Under the pieces are notes generated by a model that was not told where the DNA came from, did not search any database, and worked only from the letters and a program-made list of their open reading frames with translations. Of a stretch of DNA of 64,000 nt, positions 56,363-64,000 are shown one piece after another. A program made the translations under genes and the position numbers. Origin of the DNA: Pirellulimonas nuda (lineage in GTDB: Bacteria > Planctomycetota > Planctomycetia > Pirellulales > Lacipirellulaceae); NCBI RefSeq assembly GCF_007750855.1, contig NZ_CP036291.1:1116001-1180000 (forward strand), read 5' to 3'. Position 1 is the first letter of the stretch; every line of letters begins with the position of its first letter.

Positions 56363-57457
56363 CTATCGGGCGCTGCTTGCAGGGGAGGTTTGTTTGAGCA
56401 TCGCCTCGATCGCCGCGGCTGCTTCGTCGGTTCCGTCGAACCGCACGCTGCTGGCCGCGAGTTGACCGCGGTACTTTTCGCGATCGTCCAGAAACTGTTG
56501 GAACACCGCGGCGGTGACCCCCTCCAGCGTGCTGGCTACGCCCCCGCCCAACTGCTGGACAAAGTACGCGTTGATCATCTGCTCGTGGTGCTTCTGCTCC
56601 GGCAGCGCCAAGATCGGCTTGCCGAAGTAGAGCGACTCCCCCATCAACTGGTTGCCCGCGGCCGCGACGATGCAGTTGGCGGTCGCTAGGTCGTCCAGAA
56701 ACGTTTGCTCGTTGATCGCGTGGAACGTGATCGCCCCCCGCGGCGGGCGTTCGCCGAGCCCGTACACGCGGACCGGTAGCGGCGACCCCTCCAGCACCTC
56801 CAGCACGCGCGGCGGGGTGCTCTTCCGCAGGTAGCTGAGCACGTGATCGCCCACGCTCGGCTGCCGCGCCCGCACCGCCGGCCTCAGCAGCGGGCCGACC
56901 TGCGTCACGTGCTTGTAGTCACGCCGCAGGGGAGGGCGGTAGAACGCGCTGACGACGGTCTTCTGCTGCCCGATGCCGAACAGCCACACGCTCCACCCCA
57001 TCGCCCACGCCCACCACTGCAAGCCGCGCGGTAGGCCCGATAGGTCGTAGGTGGTCATGAAGTGCTGGTGGTCGAGGCTCATCACCGGCACGCCGCAGCG
57101 GTGGGCCGCGCGGGCCACGGTCGGCTCGAAGTCGCACACCACCAGGTCGGGCCGGTCACGCCGCACTTCGACCTCGCGCTCGCTCACCACCCCCCGCAGG
57201 TTCCACCACATCGCCAGCCCGTGGCGGATGGTCTTGATCAGGTCGAGCCGGTCGGCGGTGTAGTGGAACTTCAGGCCGCTGGTCTCGCGGACCTCGACCT
57301 CGGGATCATCCGCGTAGGCGTCCCGCAGAAAATCGAGCGCGTCGAACGAGGTGTACAGCACAATCCGGTGCCGGTCTCGCAGCCGCTCCACCATGGACCG
57401 CGCCCGCGACGCGTGCCCACGCCCCTCGCCCATCACGCTGTAGAAGAGGGTGGCCAT
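56363..57457 (-). CDS. Glycosyltransferase of the GT28/MurG-like fold
   Basis: Predicted 364-residue glycosyltransferase. ATG 57457 begins MATLFYSVMGEGRGHASRA, the glycine-rich N-terminal loop of GT-B enzymes. The donor half includes EQTFLDDLATANCIVAAAGN, MGESLYFGKPILALPEQKHH and EQMINAYFVQQLGGGV, similar to MurG/MGDG-synthase-type enzymes. It is encoded just downstream of btaB on the same strand (168-base gap), so glycosylation of a lipid is a reasonable guess, but no substrate can be read. Confidence 0.85.
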   Translation of the reverse strand: MATLFYSVMGEGRGHASRARSMVERLRDRHRIVLYTSFDALDFLRDAYADDPEVEVRETSGLKFHYTADRLDLIKTIRHGLAMWWNLRGVVSEREVEVRRDRPDLVVCDFEPTVARAAHRCGVPVMSLDHQHFMTTYDLSGLPRGLQWWAWAMGWSVWLFGIGQQKTVVSAFYRPPLRRDYKHVTQVGPLLRPAVRARQPSVGDHVLSYLRKSTPPRVLEVLEGSPLPVRVYGLGERPPRGAITFHAINEQTFLDDLATANCIVAAAGNQLMGESLYFGKPILALPEQKHHEQMINAYFVQQLGGGVASTLEGVTAAVFQQFLDDREKYRGQLAASSVRFDGTDEAAAAIEAMLKQTSPASSAR

Positions 57458-57625
57458 GGGAGTGCAGACGCATTGAAGCAGGGTGCCTGGGGTCGTAGCG
57501 TAGCGTAGCCCCCAGGCGGTCGCCATTGAGTTGGCAGAAGCGGTTCGAGCTGCCGCTGGGGGCTGCGGCTGACGCCTCCGACCCCAGCCACCCTTAGCTG
57601 AACGCTGATCGCTGACAGCTGATCG

Positions 57626-58357
57626 CTATCCTGCCTTCGTCCCCACGTACGTGTAGTACGGCGCCCGCACCACGGGGATCCACGGCAGCTTGCCGTAGTG
57701 TTGCTCGACGTCTTTCGGCTGGAACTTGTTCGCCAGGTACGGCAGGTGGTCGGCGCTCGGGTAGACGTTGTCCATCGAGAACCACACCGGCCAGAAGCTG
57801 CGCGTGAAGAACGAGTGCTCCTTGTGCCCCTCGTGCGGGTACTTGCGGGCGATGAAGAAGTCGGCCACGCCGATCGTCCCGCCAGGCTTCAGCACGCGGT
57901 ACGCCTCGTTCACGGCGCCGAACCAGTCGGGGATCATCGTCAGCGAGTAGGTGAACGTCACCAGGTCGACCGAGTTGTCGGGCTGGTCGAGGTTGGTGAC
58001 GTCCGAGCACACGGCCTCCACATTGGTCCAGCCGTGCCCCTCGATCCGCTTGTTCGCCACGGCCAGCAGCTTGGTGGACAGGTCGACCAGTTTGGCGCCC
58101 CCCAGCTTCGGCAGGCGGTCCGCCATCAGCTCTGCGTTGCTGCCGGTCCCCGAGCCCAGGTCCAGCCACACGCCCCCCTCGGGCGGGTCGACCTTGGCGA
58201 ACAACGCTTCGCGGCCGTGCAGCATCCGCTTGCGGAACGCGTCGTAGTCGTCCGCCTGGCCGCCGTAGAAGCTGTCGAGCCGCTCTTGGTGCGTCTCACC
58301 CCGAATGGGCGAGAGCGTCAGATGATACAGCGTCTTGAGTTGCGCCAGTGCGCTCAT
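57626..58357 (-). CDS. btaB: BtaB-like SAM N-methyltransferase (betaine-lipid synthesis)
   Basis: Predicted 243-residue class I methyltransferase. SAM-binding motif I is VWLDLGSGTGSNAEL, then AKLVDLSTKLL and VTFTYSLTMIPDWF, a phrase typical of BtaB and related enzymes, and later VLKPGGTIGVADFF. In DGTS synthesis BtaB trimethylates the homoserine head group made by BtaA. Its start lies inside the end of btaA (62-base overlap), strongly implying the pair works together. Confidence 0.88.
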   Translation of the reverse strand: MSALAQLKTLYHLTLSPIRGETHQERLDSFYGGQADDYDAFRKRMLHGREALFAKVDPPEGGVWLDLGSGTGSNAELMADRLPKLGGAKLVDLSTKLLAVANKRIEGHGWTNVEAVCSDVTNLDQPDNSVDLVTFTYSLTMIPDWFGAVNEAYRVLKPGGTIGVADFFIARKYPHEGHKEHSFFTRSFWPVWFSMDNVYPSADHLPYLANKFQPKDVEQHYGKLPWIPVVRAPYYTYVGTKAG

Positions 58358-59582
58358 CGCGGTGGGTGGTTGAGTTAACGGCGTACGGGGGCGAAAGCCG
58401 CAGGTTGGCGATGGAGAAGCTGCCGTAGGTGTTCACACGGTCCTTGGCGTGCAGCTCGTCCGCCAGCCCGCGGTCGTATTCCAAGAAGTCAGAAAGCGGC
58501 CGTTGCTTGCCGTCCACCTTCACCAGCACCGGGTCGACAAACTCGCACTTCACCGCGGCGCTGCGCCACAGCACGCGGGCGCCGTCGTCTGCGCGGTCGA
58601 TAATCGCCTGCCACTGCTTGGCCAGCACCTCCTTGCGGTGCTCGGCCAGCCAGTCCATGTGGTCCAGCAGCACGTAGTGGGAGTACTTGCGCTCGGTTTC
58701 CAGCAGGAAGCTGAGGATCGACGCGTGGTGCGGCTTGACCCGGTCCACCAGACCACCCTTGAGCCGGTCGAAGTTGTCCTGCCGCAGGTAGCTGGGGCAG
58801 CATTCCTCGCTGTACTCGCCGGTCAGGTAGACACGCCAGAAGTAGTTGTCCTGCAGCGGCAGCGACCCGAACACCGTGTCGAGGCGGTCTTCGACAAACT
58901 GGGCGATCCCGCCCGGGTAGTAACGCTCGAGCTGCCGACGCTGGGCGCGTGGCACCCCCAGCAGGCTCAGCGTGCTGTCACGCCGCATGGTCCACTTGAC
59001 CAGCGGGCCCCAGAACTTGGGCTTTACCTGGGCGTAGGCGTCTTGCTGCTCTTCGACGCTGGTCGCCTGCAGCATCTTCTCCACCTGTGGGCGGATCCGC
59101 GCGATGCGGTTGATGTAGGCGTTCATGCTCCAAGCGAACGCGCCGCTCGAGCCGCGGAAGTAGAAGCTGGGGCGCCGACCCACGCCGGTGAAGAACTTGC
59201 CGTGCTTGTCCCAGTACTTGCGGGCGCTGGGCGATAGCTGCTCGCGCAGCGAGCCGTGGTAGTAGTCTTGCCAGTGGTCGGTGCGGCCGCGGCCGAACAG
59301 CTCGAAGAACTGGTCGAACTCCAGCCCGCGGATGCCGGCCAGCTTCAGCTCCAAGAGCGCGTTCTGGCGCGGGTTGATGTCGACCGTGTCGACCCGCTCC
59401 GGCTCGTCCAGCGCGTAATCCAGCGCGTTGCAACCCGCGGAGGTGATCACCAGCAGCCGGTCGCCCGGCCCCAGGTCCAGCGCCACGCGGTCTAACCGCG
59501 GGTCTTCCCAGCAGGTGTTGTAGACGAGGTGATTCGAATGGCAGAGCTTAAAAACAGCCTTGCTCAAATAGCTTGCCAGCAT
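58296..59582 (-). CDS. btaA: BtaA-like SAM:diacylglycerol 3-amino-3-carboxypropyltransferase
   Basis: Predicted 428-residue enzyme of the DUF3419/BtaA family, attaching the aminocarboxypropyl group of SAM to diacylglycerol, the first step to the betaine lipid DGTS. ATG 59582 begins MLASYLSKAVFKLCHSNHLV. YNTCWEDPRLDRVALDLGPG and VITSAGCNALDYALDEPERV are the SAM-site region, VDTVDINPRQNALLELKLAG follows, and SFYFRGSSGAFAWSMNAYIN lies in the middle. Length fits bacterial BtaA (about 410-430). It overlaps btaB and is divergent from phoD. Confidence 0.92.
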   Translation of the reverse strand: MLASYLSKAVFKLCHSNHLVYNTCWEDPRLDRVALDLGPGDRLLVITSAGCNALDYALDEPERVDTVDINPRQNALLELKLAGIRGLEFDQFFELFGRGRTDHWQDYYHGSLREQLSPSARKYWDKHGKFFTGVGRRPSFYFRGSSGAFAWSMNAYINRIARIRPQVEKMLQATSVEEQQDAYAQVKPKFWGPLVKWTMRRDSTLSLLGVPRAQRRQLERYYPGGIAQFVEDRLDTVFGSLPLQDNYFWRVYLTGEYSEECCPSYLRQDNFDRLKGGLVDRVKPHHASILSFLLETERKYSHYVLLDHMDWLAEHRKEVLAKQWQAIIDRADDGARVLWRSAAVKCEFVDPVLVKVDGKQRPLSDFLEYDRGLADELHAKDRVNTYGSFSIANLRLSPPYAVNSTTHRDERTGATQDAVSSDALAHSG

Positions 59583-59888
59583 CGGCGGAGGACCCTCGGG
59601 GCGGGCGCGGTAGCCAGAGTGGGGGGAAACTTGACCCAGTAGTCTATGCCGAAGCCCGCCGGGTTGGGAAGTGTGTCCGCCGCGGCTTTTCCGCTGTGGG
59701 AGAAAGGGCCTGGGGAACTGTAGCGATCGGCGAAACGTCAGTTTTCCGACGGGGGAGCGTTTTTCCGGTGCGCAGCCGTGGTCCACTTCATTCGGCCTTC
59801 ACGTTTGCCAGGTAAACTCCGGGTACCGGCACGATCGCCGTCGAATGAGCGGACTTCGTTCCTCGAACCTGCCAGATACCAGACCACC
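59583..59888. other. Divergent btaA/phoD intergenic region
   Basis: About 300 bases between divergent btaA and phoD starts, rich in GGGG/GAAA runs. It must hold promoters for both. The only motif I can point to is the direct repeat at 59786-59803, described separately. No open frame here looks coding. Confidence 0.5.
59786..59803 (+). promoter_or_regulatory. Pho-box-like direct repeat upstream of phoD
   Basis: CTTCATT and CTTCACG are spaced 11 bases start to start, the helical period used by PhoB-type direct repeats (E. coli consensus CTGTCAT-4-CTGTCAC). They lie about 85 bases upstream of the phoD start. Only two repeat units are visible, so this is a weak candidate. Confidence 0.35.
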
Positions 59889-61496
59889 ATGCTCGACTAC
59901 GAATCGCTCCGAACGGCCGTTCAATCCGAAGGGGGCGTCAGCCGCCGCGCCATGCTGGCGTACAGTGCGGCGCTTGGCTCGCTGCCGCTGTTAGGCCGCA
60001 CGAGTTGGGCAGAAACGCGGCCGGCCTTCGCCAGTGATCCGTTTACGCTGGGGGTCGCGTCGGGCGACCCTACGAGCGACGGGATGGTGTTGTGGACCCG
60101 CCTGGCGCCGGCGCCCCTCGACCCAAACGGGGGCATGCCCACCACGCCGGTCGAGGTGCCGTGGGAAGTAGCCGAGGACGACGCGCTCAATCACGTCGTC
60201 CGCAAAGGGACCGCGACCGCGACGCCGCAGTTGGGCCACGCCGTGCATGTGGAAGTCGATGGTCTCAAGCCCGACCGCTGGTATTGGTACCGCTTCCGCG
60301 CGGGGGACGCCCAAAGCCCTGTGGGGCGGACCCGCACGTTCCCGGCGCCAGACGTGATGCCCGCCAAGCTGGCGTTTGCGTTCGCCTCGTGCCAGCACTA
60401 CGAGCACGGCTACTACACCGCCTACGAAGGGATGGCGGGCGACGACCTCGACCTGGTGGTTCACTTGGGGGACTACATCTACGAGAAGGGCCCCTACAAG
60501 CTGCGGAAGGGGGAGAAGGACCCCAACGTGCGCAAGCACGTAGGGGGAGAGATCGAGTCGCTGGGGGACTATCGGGTGCGTCACTCCCTCTACCGCAGCG
60601 ACCCGTTGCTGCACGGCATGCACGCCCAGTGCCCGTGGATCGTGACCTGGGACGACCACGAAGTCGACAACAACTACGCCGACGGCACCTCGGAAGAGAA
60701 GCGCGTCGACCCGGTCGACTTCCTCCTCCGCCGCGCCAACGCCTACCAGGCCTACTACGAGATGATGCCGCTGCGGAAGCGTTCAATGCCCAGCGGCCCC
60801 AACATGCGGCTCTACCGCGGCGCCGATTTTGGTCGGCTGGCGAGGTTCCTGACGCTCGACACTCGGCAGCACCGCAGCGACCAGCCGAACGACGACGGCA
60901 AGACGCCGCTGAACGCCGACGCCCTGAACCCCAGCAACACCATGCTGGGGGCCGACCAACGGCGTTGGCTGGAGCGGCGGTTGATCGATTCGTCCGCAAA
61001 CTGGAACGTGCTGGCCCAGCAGGTAATGATGGGCACGGTCGCCCGCTTCGAGAAGGACGGCGTGCCGATGTACTCGATGGACCAATGGCCCGGCTACGCC
61101 GCGGAGCGCGCCGCTCTGATGCGGTTCCTGCAAGACCGCCGCGTCCCCAACCCCGTGGTGCTGACCGGCGACATCCACTGCAACTGGGCCAACGAGCTCC
61201 GCGTCGACGACCTCAAGCCCGAAACGCCCATCGTGGCCAGTGAGTTCGTCGGCACCTCGATCACTTCCGGCGGCAACGGCGTCGACCGAGCGGACGACCA
61301 CGACGCGACGCTCTCCGCCAACCCCTGCGTCCGCTACTACAACCGCGAACGGGGCTACGTCCGCTGCACGGTCACCCCCGACGCTTGGGTGAGCGACTAC
61401 ATGGTGGTAGACGACGTGCAGCGCCCCGGCGGCAATGTGACGAAGCGGGCTTCGTACGCCGTCGAGTCGGGCAAGCCGGGCGTATCGCCGGCGTAG
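59889..61496 (+). CDS. phoD: PhoD-type alkaline phosphatase
   Basis: Predicted 535-residue exported phosphodiesterase/monoesterase. ATG 59889; an Arg-pair signal (SRRAMLAYSAALGSLPLLG) suggests Tat export as for Bacillus PhoD. The N-terminal PhoD domain (FTLGVASGDPTSDGMVLWTR) precedes the metallophosphatase: FASCQHYEHGYYTAYEG, VVHLGDYIYE, VTWDDHEVDNNYADG and VVLTGDIHCNWANEL. The usual Fe/Ca-binding residues are visible. Releases phosphate from organic P; divergent from btaA. Confidence 0.94.
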   Translation: MLDYESLRTAVQSEGGVSRRAMLAYSAALGSLPLLGRTSWAETRPAFASDPFTLGVASGDPTSDGMVLWTRLAPAPLDPNGGMPTTPVEVPWEVAEDDALNHVVRKGTATATPQLGHAVHVEVDGLKPDRWYWYRFRAGDAQSPVGRTRTFPAPDVMPAKLAFAFASCQHYEHGYYTAYEGMAGDDLDLVVHLGDYIYEKGPYKLRKGEKDPNVRKHVGGEIESLGDYRVRHSLYRSDPLLHGMHAQCPWIVTWDDHEVDNNYADGTSEEKRVDPVDFLLRRANAYQAYYEMMPLRKRSMPSGPNMRLYRGADFGRLARFLTLDTRQHRSDQPNDDGKTPLNADALNPSNTMLGADQRRWLERRLIDSSANWNVLAQQVMMGTVARFEKDGVPMYSMDQWPGYAAERAALMRFLQDRRVPNPVVLTGDIHCNWANELRVDDLKPETPIVASEFVGTSITSGGNGVDRADDHDATLSANPCVRYYNRERGYVRCTVTPDAWVSDYMVVDDVQRPGGNVTKRASYAVESGKPGVSPA

Positions 61497-61721: not shown

Positions 61722-63008
61722 ATGGCTTCTAGCACCCCCCTTGCGCGCTTGCTCGAGGAACGCTCCAGCGGCCGCGTCGTCAAGCACCTCGCGGCGATCC
61801 TCGATCAGCTCCCCAACTCCTACTGCCAGCTCGAATCGCTCGGGCGGCACGAGTGCGTGATCCGCGGCCGGCGGATGCTCAACTTTAACGCCATCAACTA
61901 CCTGGGGCTCGAGCAGCACCCAGAGATGATCGCCTCGGCCCAACAGGCGCTGGCGACCTGGGGCACGCTGGCCGGCAGCTCGCGGGCCGCGGCGGAGGTG
62001 GGGCTGTACGAGAAACTCGAGAGCAAGATCGCCGAGAAGATCGGCGTCGAGAGCGTGATCGTCTACCCGACCGTCACGCTGGCCAACCACGGGGTGATCC
62101 CGCTGCTGATGCGGAAGCGGTCGCTGCTGCTGACCGACCAAGAGGTGCATAACAGCGTGCAGCGGGCCGCCATCGAGGCCAAGGGCGCCGGCGCCACGCT
62201 GGGGTCGTTCATCCACGACGACTTCACGCAGCTCGAGCAAATCCTCGAAGCCCAGCGCGGCCAGCACAGCCACGCCATGATCGCGCTGGACGGCGTCTAC
62301 AGCATGGCGGGCACCTACCTGAACCTGCCGCGCTACGAGGCGATCGCCAAGAAGTACGACGCGATGCTGTACATCGACGACGCCCACGGCTTCGGCGTGG
62401 TCGGCCCCGAGGGACGCGGCATCGTCAGCCACTACGGCAGCAACTACGACAACACGATCTACGTCGCCTCGTTGGAGAAAGGCCTGGCGAGCCTCGGCGG
62501 CTTCGTCGCCGTGCCGCAGGCCGCCCGCGACTACTTCCGCTACAACTCGTACACCTACACGTTCAGCGGGCAGTTGCCCCCGCCGTACCTGGCCAGCGCG
62601 CTGACCGCGATGGAGATCCTCGAGCGCGAGAAGGGCGCCCGGCTCACACGGCTGCACGAGCTGATCGGCCGCGTGAAGACCGAGGTGCAAGAGATCGGCT
62701 TCGAGGTGATCGGCGAAGACCACCCGTTCCCGCTGGTGATGGTCAAGGTGGGCGAGTTTGAGAACATCCCCGAGGTGTCGCAGTTCTTCTACGACGAGGG
62801 GGTGCACATCCTTACGGTCGGATTCCCGGTCATCCCGCAGTCACGCGGCGCCATGGTGCGGATCAGCCTGTCGGCCACCCACGCCGACAGCCAGATCGAC
62901 CGGCTGATGGCCGCGTTCCGCAAGCTGCACGCCAAGCTCAACCCGTCGCGAACCCAACAGGACAGCCGTGAATGCCTTGCAGATACTGCCAGCTCGGTCG
63001 CGGCGTGA
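61722..63008 (+). CDS. Alpha-oxoamine synthase family enzyme (serine-palmitoyltransferase-like)
   Basis: Predicted 428-residue PLP enzyme. ATG 61722 behind AAGGTCCTGTG. The fold-type I AOS pattern is NFNAINYLGLEQHPEMIASA, GTLAGSSRAAAEVGLYEKLE, then MLYIDDAHGFGVVG (PLP Asp/His). The PLP lysine is expected in YVASLEKGLASLGG. Members condense an amino acid with acyl-CoA: serine palmitoyltransferase, KBL, BioF or ALA synthase. The non-canonical 'SLEKG' lysine context and the adjacent GNAT gene favour a sphingolipid-type enzyme, but BioF-like activity is possible. Confidence 0.8.
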   Translation: MASSTPLARLLEERSSGRVVKHLAAILDQLPNSYCQLESLGRHECVIRGRRMLNFNAINYLGLEQHPEMIASAQQALATWGTLAGSSRAAAEVGLYEKLESKIAEKIGVESVIVYPTVTLANHGVIPLLMRKRSLLLTDQEVHNSVQRAAIEAKGAGATLGSFIHDDFTQLEQILEAQRGQHSHAMIALDGVYSMAGTYLNLPRYEAIAKKYDAMLYIDDAHGFGVVGPEGRGIVSHYGSNYDNTIYVASLEKGLASLGGFVAVPQAARDYFRYNSYTYTFSGQLPPPYLASALTAMEILEREKGARLTRLHELIGRVKTEVQEIGFEVIGEDHPFPLVMVKVGEFENIPEVSQFFYDEGVHILTVGFPVIPQSRGAMVRISLSATHADSQIDRLMAAFRKLHAKLNPSRTQQDSRECLADTASSVAA

Positions 63009-64000
63009 TCGGAAGCGGTTCCTCGGCCTGCCGGCGCGTATCTATCAAGGCGACCCGTTGTGGGCCCCCGCGCTGGCGGCCGAGGAAAAGGCGCTGGTGG
63101 GCTTCAAGAAGCACCCCTTCCACGCAGTGAACGACGCGCAGTGCTTCCTCGCGGTGCGGGGCGACGAGGCGGTCGGCCGGATCGCCGCGATCCACAACCG
63201 CGAGCACAACGCCCAGCACCAAGACCGCACGGGCTTCTTCGGCTTCTTCGAGTGCCAAGACGACGCCGAGGCTGCCGCGGCGTTGTTTGCTGCCGCGAGC
63301 GGATGGCTGGCCGAGCGCGGCCTCGACCGAATCCGCGGCCCGGCGAACCCCAGCATCAACTACACGCTCGGGACGCTGGTTGAAGGGCACGACGTGCCGC
63401 CGACGTTCATGACCCCCTACAACCCGCCGTATTACGCGGGGCTGATCGAGGGCGCCGGCTTCCAGAAGGAGCACGACCTGTGGGCGCTGCGGATGACGAT
63501 GCCGCAGATGGAAACTATGGCGAGCAGGGTCGAGCGAATCACGCAGCGGCTCACGAAGCAGTACGGCCTGAAGCTGCGGACGTGGTCCGCCACCCCGCGT
63601 CCAGAAGAATTGCGCGAGTTCCTCGGCGTGATCAACAGCTCGCTTCAAGACCACTGGGGCTTTGTGCCGCTCACCCAGAAAGAACTGCAGCGCGCCGCCG
63701 CGGGGCTGCGGCTGCTGCTAGTGCCGGAGCTGGTGATCGGCATCGAGATCGAGGGCCGGTTGGTAGGGGTCACGCTGGCTCTGCCCGACTACAACCCACG
63801 CATCAAGAAGATCGGCGGCCGATTGTTCCCGTTCGGCTTCCTTCAACTGCTCGCCCGCAAGCGGAGCATCAAGAAGCACCGCGTGATGGCCGCCAATGTG
63901 CTGCCGGAGTACAACCGCGCGGGGCTGGGGGTAGTGCTGATCCACGCCTTGATCCTGCGGGCCCGCGAGCTGGGCTGCCAGGAGGTGGAGTACTCGTGGA
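62968..64000 (+). CDS. GNAT-fold protein overlapping the AOS gene (partial at right edge)
   Basis: GTG at 62968 overlaps the preceding gene by 41 bases, so the two are coupled. The product (344 residues visible, cut at the window edge) begins LQILPARSRRDRKRFLGLPA and shows IYQGDPLWAPALAAEEKALV, VGRIAAIHNREHNAQH, TPYNPPYYAGLIEGAGFQKE and the GNAT core NVLPEYNRAGLGVVLIHALI. Proteins of this type are annotated YghO-like; related GNAT-fold enzymes have been reported as bacterial ceramide synthases beside serine palmitoyltransferase. The ceramide role here is inference. Confidence 0.75.
   Translation, partial: MNALQILPARSRRDRKRFLGLPARIYQGDPLWAPALAAEEKALVGFKKHPFHAVNDAQCFLAVRGDEAVGRIAAIHNREHNAQHQDRTGFFGFFECQDDAEAAAALFAAASGWLAERGLDRIRGPANPSINYTLGTLVEGHDVPPTFMTPYNPPYYAGLIEGAGFQKEHDLWALRMTMPQMETMASRVERITQRLTKQYGLKLRTWSATPRPEELREFLGVINSSLQDHWGFVPLTQKELQRAAAGLRLLLVPELVIGIEIEGRLVGVTLALPDYNPRIKKIGGRLFPFGFLQLLARKRSIKKHRVMAANVLPEYNRAGLGVVLIHALILRARELGCQEVEYSW

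Follow-up and report, generated by a model that had tools for sequence, protein, structure and literature searches.

A candidate lineage-specific α-oxoamine synthase/N-acyltransferase gene pair in Pirellulimonas nuda

Ceramide-type gene sets and the Pirellulimonas nuda locus

Among the closest described systems is the five-gene set of E. coli B and Caulobacter, which comprises aasR-cerR-acpR-spt together with cerS/yghO (PMC9386255, PMC11324152). The ceramide N-acyltransferase of Caulobacter is CC_1154 (PMC11324152), whose E. coli counterpart is YghO (PMC9386255). In Pseudomonas, sphinganine synthesis of a polyketide type depends on SgaAB; SgaB, an α-oxoamine synthase (AOS) that partners a PKS, has serine palmitoyltransferase (SPT) activity and so represents a non-canonical, PKS-linked AOS with this function (PMC12134224). 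A further relative, SulA, is a cysteate acyl-ACP transferase that shares the AOS fold and PLP residues (PMC9304779). Earlier work named Planctomycetota among the likely producers of sphingolipids and reported Spt-like genes of this phylum from the Black Sea (PMC11334938).

With Spt, CerR and bCerS (bacterial ceramide synthase) as defined in Caulobacter, corresponding loci can be recognized across Planctomycetota. Of 42 planctomycete GNAT loci from outside the order of P. nuda, 31 have an AOS gene immediately upstream of the YghO-family GNAT gene, on the same strand, and 20 have a CerR-like gene as well. Those AOS from these loci that were included in a tree fall in the Spt clade together with the Spts of E. 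coli B, Sphingomonas, Sphingobacterium and Bacteroides; the exception is one AOS from genome G033 (L062). The adjacency of AOS and GNAT genes is thus more than chance, and given the affiliation of these AOS proteins, their coupling is the usual planctomycete ceramide architecture, which supports in part an earlier note's reading of the pair described here as a candidate sphingolipid module.

The window analysed here is a stretch of 64,000 nucleotides, C1:1116001-1180000 of the single 6.62 Mb contig of P. nuda. A PLP-dependent AOS of 428 aa, which starts with ATG and matches PF00155 at 1.6e-30, is encoded at 61722-63008 on the plus strand. It is followed on the same strand by a YghO/bCerS-family GNAT N-acyltransferase gene at 62968-64000; 344 of its 376 aa lie inside the window, while its last 98 bases extend to the right of it (L003:2968-4098). 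The two genes overlap by exactly 41 bases (62968-63008), which confirms the overlap first noted. The GTG start of the GNAT gene at 62968 is credible because a Shine-Dalgarno-like AGGA, read directly at 62959-62962 on the plus strand within the AOS gene, stands 5 nt ahead of it and because the resulting N-terminus aligns with E. coli YghO and the paralogues. (The GC content of the AOS gene, 0.663 compared with 0.66 for the window, gives no hint of foreign origin.)

The pair resembles the planctomycete cerR/spt-bCerS loci in that its AOS gene comes immediately before a YghO-family GNAT gene of the same orientation, but it differs from them in that its AOS belongs to another clade, there is no divergent cerR, and the GNAT is a diverged paralogue. 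With the E. coli B/Caulobacter set it shares full-length YghO homology and AOS chemistry; however, AasR, AcpR and CerR do not adjoin the pair, and its AOS is only 30% identical to E. coli B Spt. No CerR gene is found within about 16 kb to the right of the pair or among the left neighbour genes, and extension past the right edge, where a CerR-like reductase or further lipid genes had been looked for, revealed none that is clear within 16 kb. The genes found there encode a dockerin-type protein, an arginine dihydrolase-like protein and others; an ArgZ-like arginine dihydrolase gene is followed by a DDAH-like gene (L003:6514-8925).

To the left, Pfam matches confirm the reported placement beside betaine-lipid and phoD genes. 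A phoD alkaline phosphatase gene (59778-61496, plus strand; PF09423) ends 225 bases upstream of the AOS gene, on the same strand, and is preceded on the minus strand by btaA (DUF3419; 58296-59786), for betaine-lipid synthesis, and a btaB-type methyltransferase gene (57626-58357). The btaA and btaB genes form a minus-strand unit with a gene for an MJ1255-family glycosyltransferase (window 56363-59786), which may make a glycolipid; btaAB is conserved in 12 family relatives, and the glycosyltransferase gene follows in most of them. In none of these 12 relatives does either phoD or the AOS-GNAT pair lie beside btaAB, so that the adjacency of btaAB-phoD to the pair is particular to the P. nuda genome. 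A phosphorus-free-lipid theme shared by the pair and btaAB-phoD is possible, but the suggestion that two kinds of phosphorus-free lipid are made from this one region finds no comparative support in an arrangement that the relatives do not keep.

Affiliations of the two proteins

The GNAT protein scores 31.3 bits with PF00583, for which the cut-off is 20.7, and its homology to YghO of E. coli B spans the whole protein, with 31% identity over 377 aa. It retains 45 of the 52 columns that are conserved across Spt-linked GNATs, and in a tree of 47 sequences it falls among GNATs that are linked to spt, cerR or both, as sister to the bCerS-2 (GNAT-2) clade of the host order, with support of 100/100. 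In the P. nuda genome and most family genomes, the bCerS-2 gene is divergent from a CerR-like epimerase gene. These comparisons place the predicted protein in the YghO/CC_1154 (bCerS) family as a diverged paralogue of the CerR-paired bCerS-2, and its proposed kinship with bacterial ceramide synthases is upheld. A PDB sequence search gave no solved relative (best E 0.17), and a single-sequence structure prediction of the GNAT part, with a pLDDT of 37, was set aside. P. nuda encodes three YghO-family GNATs in all; the third (L018:8393-9565, genome C1:3922393-3923565, plus strand) shares 37% with the E. coli B protein and is the closest of the three to proteobacterial YghO, and neither an AOS nor a CerR gene adjoins it.

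When the window AOS is aligned to known AOS sites, the catalytic residues N57, H143, D219, H222, K253 and R380 are all kept. E252, which precedes the catalytic lysine, is unique to this protein among the compared set. At the position of SulA Lys281, beside the PLP phosphate, Ala is found in each of the 16 planctomycete Spts and in every tabulated reference Spt, whereas the window AOS and its entire clade have Gly. (A suspected loss of a conserved substrate Asn in the clade was dropped, since both the window AOS and Sphingomonas Spt carry Asn in the adjacent column.) The window AOS scores 227 bits with the Bacteroidota Spt model, compared with 504-514 for true planctomycete Spts; the curated cut-off of this model, 640, is not decisive by itself because the true planctomycete Spts also fall below it. 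The highest NCBIfam score, 259 bits, is to BioF and is far under the cut-off of 426. In three trees, one of them computed without the longest branches and all built without Bacteroidota SulA and ALAS sequences, the window AOS lies in a separate clade with support of 100/100, outside the KBL group. AU tests reject its joining with Spt (p 0.0013), with the SgaB type (p 0.0057) and with BioF (p 8e-23). The predicted AOS is thereby assigned to a rare clade distinct from Spt, the SgaB type, BioF and KBL. The earlier note had read this protein as serine-palmitoyltransferase-like, a reading that the trees do not support; the BioF/KBL affiliation that it had named, together with a GNAT protein away from bCerS, as the outcome fatal to its proposal is not what the trees give either. 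Of the comparisons it had called for, that with bCerS places the GNAT protein in the YghO/bCerS family, while that with Spt speaks against an Spt.

By a clade profile, members of this AOS clade occur in 4 of 392 planctomycete genomes, at 539-619 bits compared with at most 310 for the rest. In the trees its members, besides the window AOS, are the AOS of G504 and G505 (both from the family search), G226 and G076, together with a PKS-borne AOS of G071. The best relatives found are only about 34-36% identical to the window AOS. Other phyla were sampled through plasmids and a contig scan, and the scan, which used six exact 8-residue patterns and so does not prove absence, yielded only distant AOS enzymes (26-33%). 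No GNAT gene lies beside the other members of the clade, and pairing of a GNAT with an AOS of this clade is thus known from one genome. The G071 protein forms the end of a giant PKS, and the G504 gene lies near genes for a ketoacyl synthase and an acyltransferase. In G505 (L122) and G226 (L192) the AOS gene adjoins genes for an MMPL transporter and a sulfotransferase, which suggests an exported sulfated amino lipid.

A putative core ceramide route elsewhere in the genome

The P. nuda genome encodes only four AOS: BioF, which scores above its cut-off, KBL, the window protein, and a 1170-aa FAAL-ACP-AOS fusion (L017:7942-11454, genome C1:1757942-1761454, minus strand) that is widespread in the family. 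The fusion combines the same three activities that AasR, AcpR and Spt provide as separate proteins in Proteobacteria (PMC9386255). Its AOS domain is close to PKS-partner AOS: in the tree the fusion domains join an AOS from a Pseudomonas plasmid (57% identity with one fusion domain), whose gene adjoins a type I PKS and which was taken as SgaB type on gene order alone. The fusion is a candidate SPT outside the Spt clade.

A CerR-like epimerase gene and bCerS-2 are divergently oriented, close to a ketoacyl synthase gene (L004:7664-11474, genome C1:6537664-6541474), and this CerR-bCerS-2 gene pair is kept in most family genomes. The two CerR-like genes of P. nuda are at C1:6540464 and C1:5903619; the second, 41% identical to the first, is divergent from a large FAAL-first PKS (L120 and L194, genome C1:5880001-5912000). 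Across 44 family genomes, the fusion and bCerS-2 are both present in 33, only one of them in 3 and 2, and neither in 6 (p 2.9e-4), and the corresponding counts for the fusion and CerR are 32/4/2/6 (p 6.9e-4); these p-values come from Fisher tests that ignore shared ancestry and are weakened also by incomplete genomes. Given this co-occurrence, it is more likely that the fusion, bCerS-2 and CerR constitute the core ceramide route of the family, supplemented in the P. nuda genome alone by the window pair.

Proposed function of the pair

We consider it more probable than any competing reading, at a little better than even, that the pair is an extra, lineage-specific and translationally coupled module for an N-acyl-α-oxoamine lipid, with the core route encoded elsewhere. 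The AOS, through a decarboxylating, PLP-dependent reaction, would condense an amino acid with a fatty acyl thioester to give a long-chain α-amino ketone. The bCerS-family GNAT encoded by the overlapping gene would then N-acylate the amine, yielding an N-acyl-α-oxoamine that would be a ceramide-like or oxidised-ceramide-like lipid, and reduction of the ketone may fall to a CerR-like reductase encoded at another site (C1:6540464 or C1:5903619). In this scheme, whose activities, acyl donor and step order we infer, a diverged bCerS paralogue would have come to work with a rare-clade AOS. Since the nearest AOS relatives are so distant, the substrate cannot be read from kin, and serine, alanine, glycine or another amino acid are all candidates. 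A serine-derived ceramide is a possible product, although it is not the better-supported specific claim. A more elaborate version, which we advance tentatively and hold less probable than the general one, is that a ceramide synthase was duplicated and acquired a new partner, an AOS whose clade is uncharacterised, giving a parallel pathway to a ceramide-like lipid whose amino-acid headgroup differs, next to a core route in which the fused FAAL-ACP-AOS replaces the classical Spt.

The pair could instead be the ceramide module of the organism, its AOS being a diverged serine palmitoyltransferase whose 3-ketosphinganine is then N-acylated. Such a role would fit the gene order and strand, which match planctomycete spt-bCerS, the membership of the GNAT in the bCerS family, the retained catalytic residues, the absence of any Spt-clade AOS elsewhere in the genome, and the precedent of SgaB (PMC12134224) for SPT activity beyond classical Spts. 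It is nonetheless doubtful, given the AU rejection, the low score on the Spt model, the Gly where Spts carry Ala, and the existence of family relatives that have the fusion, bCerS-2 and CerR but lack the window pair. Of the original proposal that the pair could make sphinganine and acylate it, the acylating partner stands, while the Spt step is not supported. That the pair makes no membrane lipid but a secondary metabolite or an amine of polyketide type is suggested by the surroundings of the clade mates, namely the giant PKS of G071, the ketoacyl synthase and acyltransferase of G504, and the MMPL transporter and sulfotransferase of G226 and G505; we regard it as unlikely, because no PKS, MMPL or sulfotransferase gene adjoins the window pair and the partner of its AOS is a bCerS paralogue from a family met with spt and cerR.

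Still less probable is a sulfonolipid branch, in which a SulA-like cysteate acyltransferase would supply 3-ketocapnine for N-acylation by the GNAT. SulA is itself an AOS, and sulfotransferase genes adjoin some clade mates, but the Lys281 that marks SulA (PMC9304779) is Gly throughout the clade, at a position where Spt has Ala, which argues against this role. Least probable of all, and barely credible, is that the AOS is a redundant enzyme of the BioF or KBL type, its overlap with the GNAT gene being incidental: its top NCBIfam score is to BioF, but the genome already has its own BioF and KBL, the trees and AU test exclude BioF, and coupling to a bCerS-type GNAT is a phylum-wide pattern.

If the favoured reading of a lineage-specific N-acyl-α-oxoamine module is correct, the pair would offer a testable two-gene case of a ceramide synthase with a non-Spt partner, which would inform AOS headgroup specificity. 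Searches for sphingolipid producers that are based on the Spt clade would miss this module; more importantly, the same searches would miss the whole planctomycete family, in which the first step is probably carried out by the FAAL-ACP-AOS fusion.
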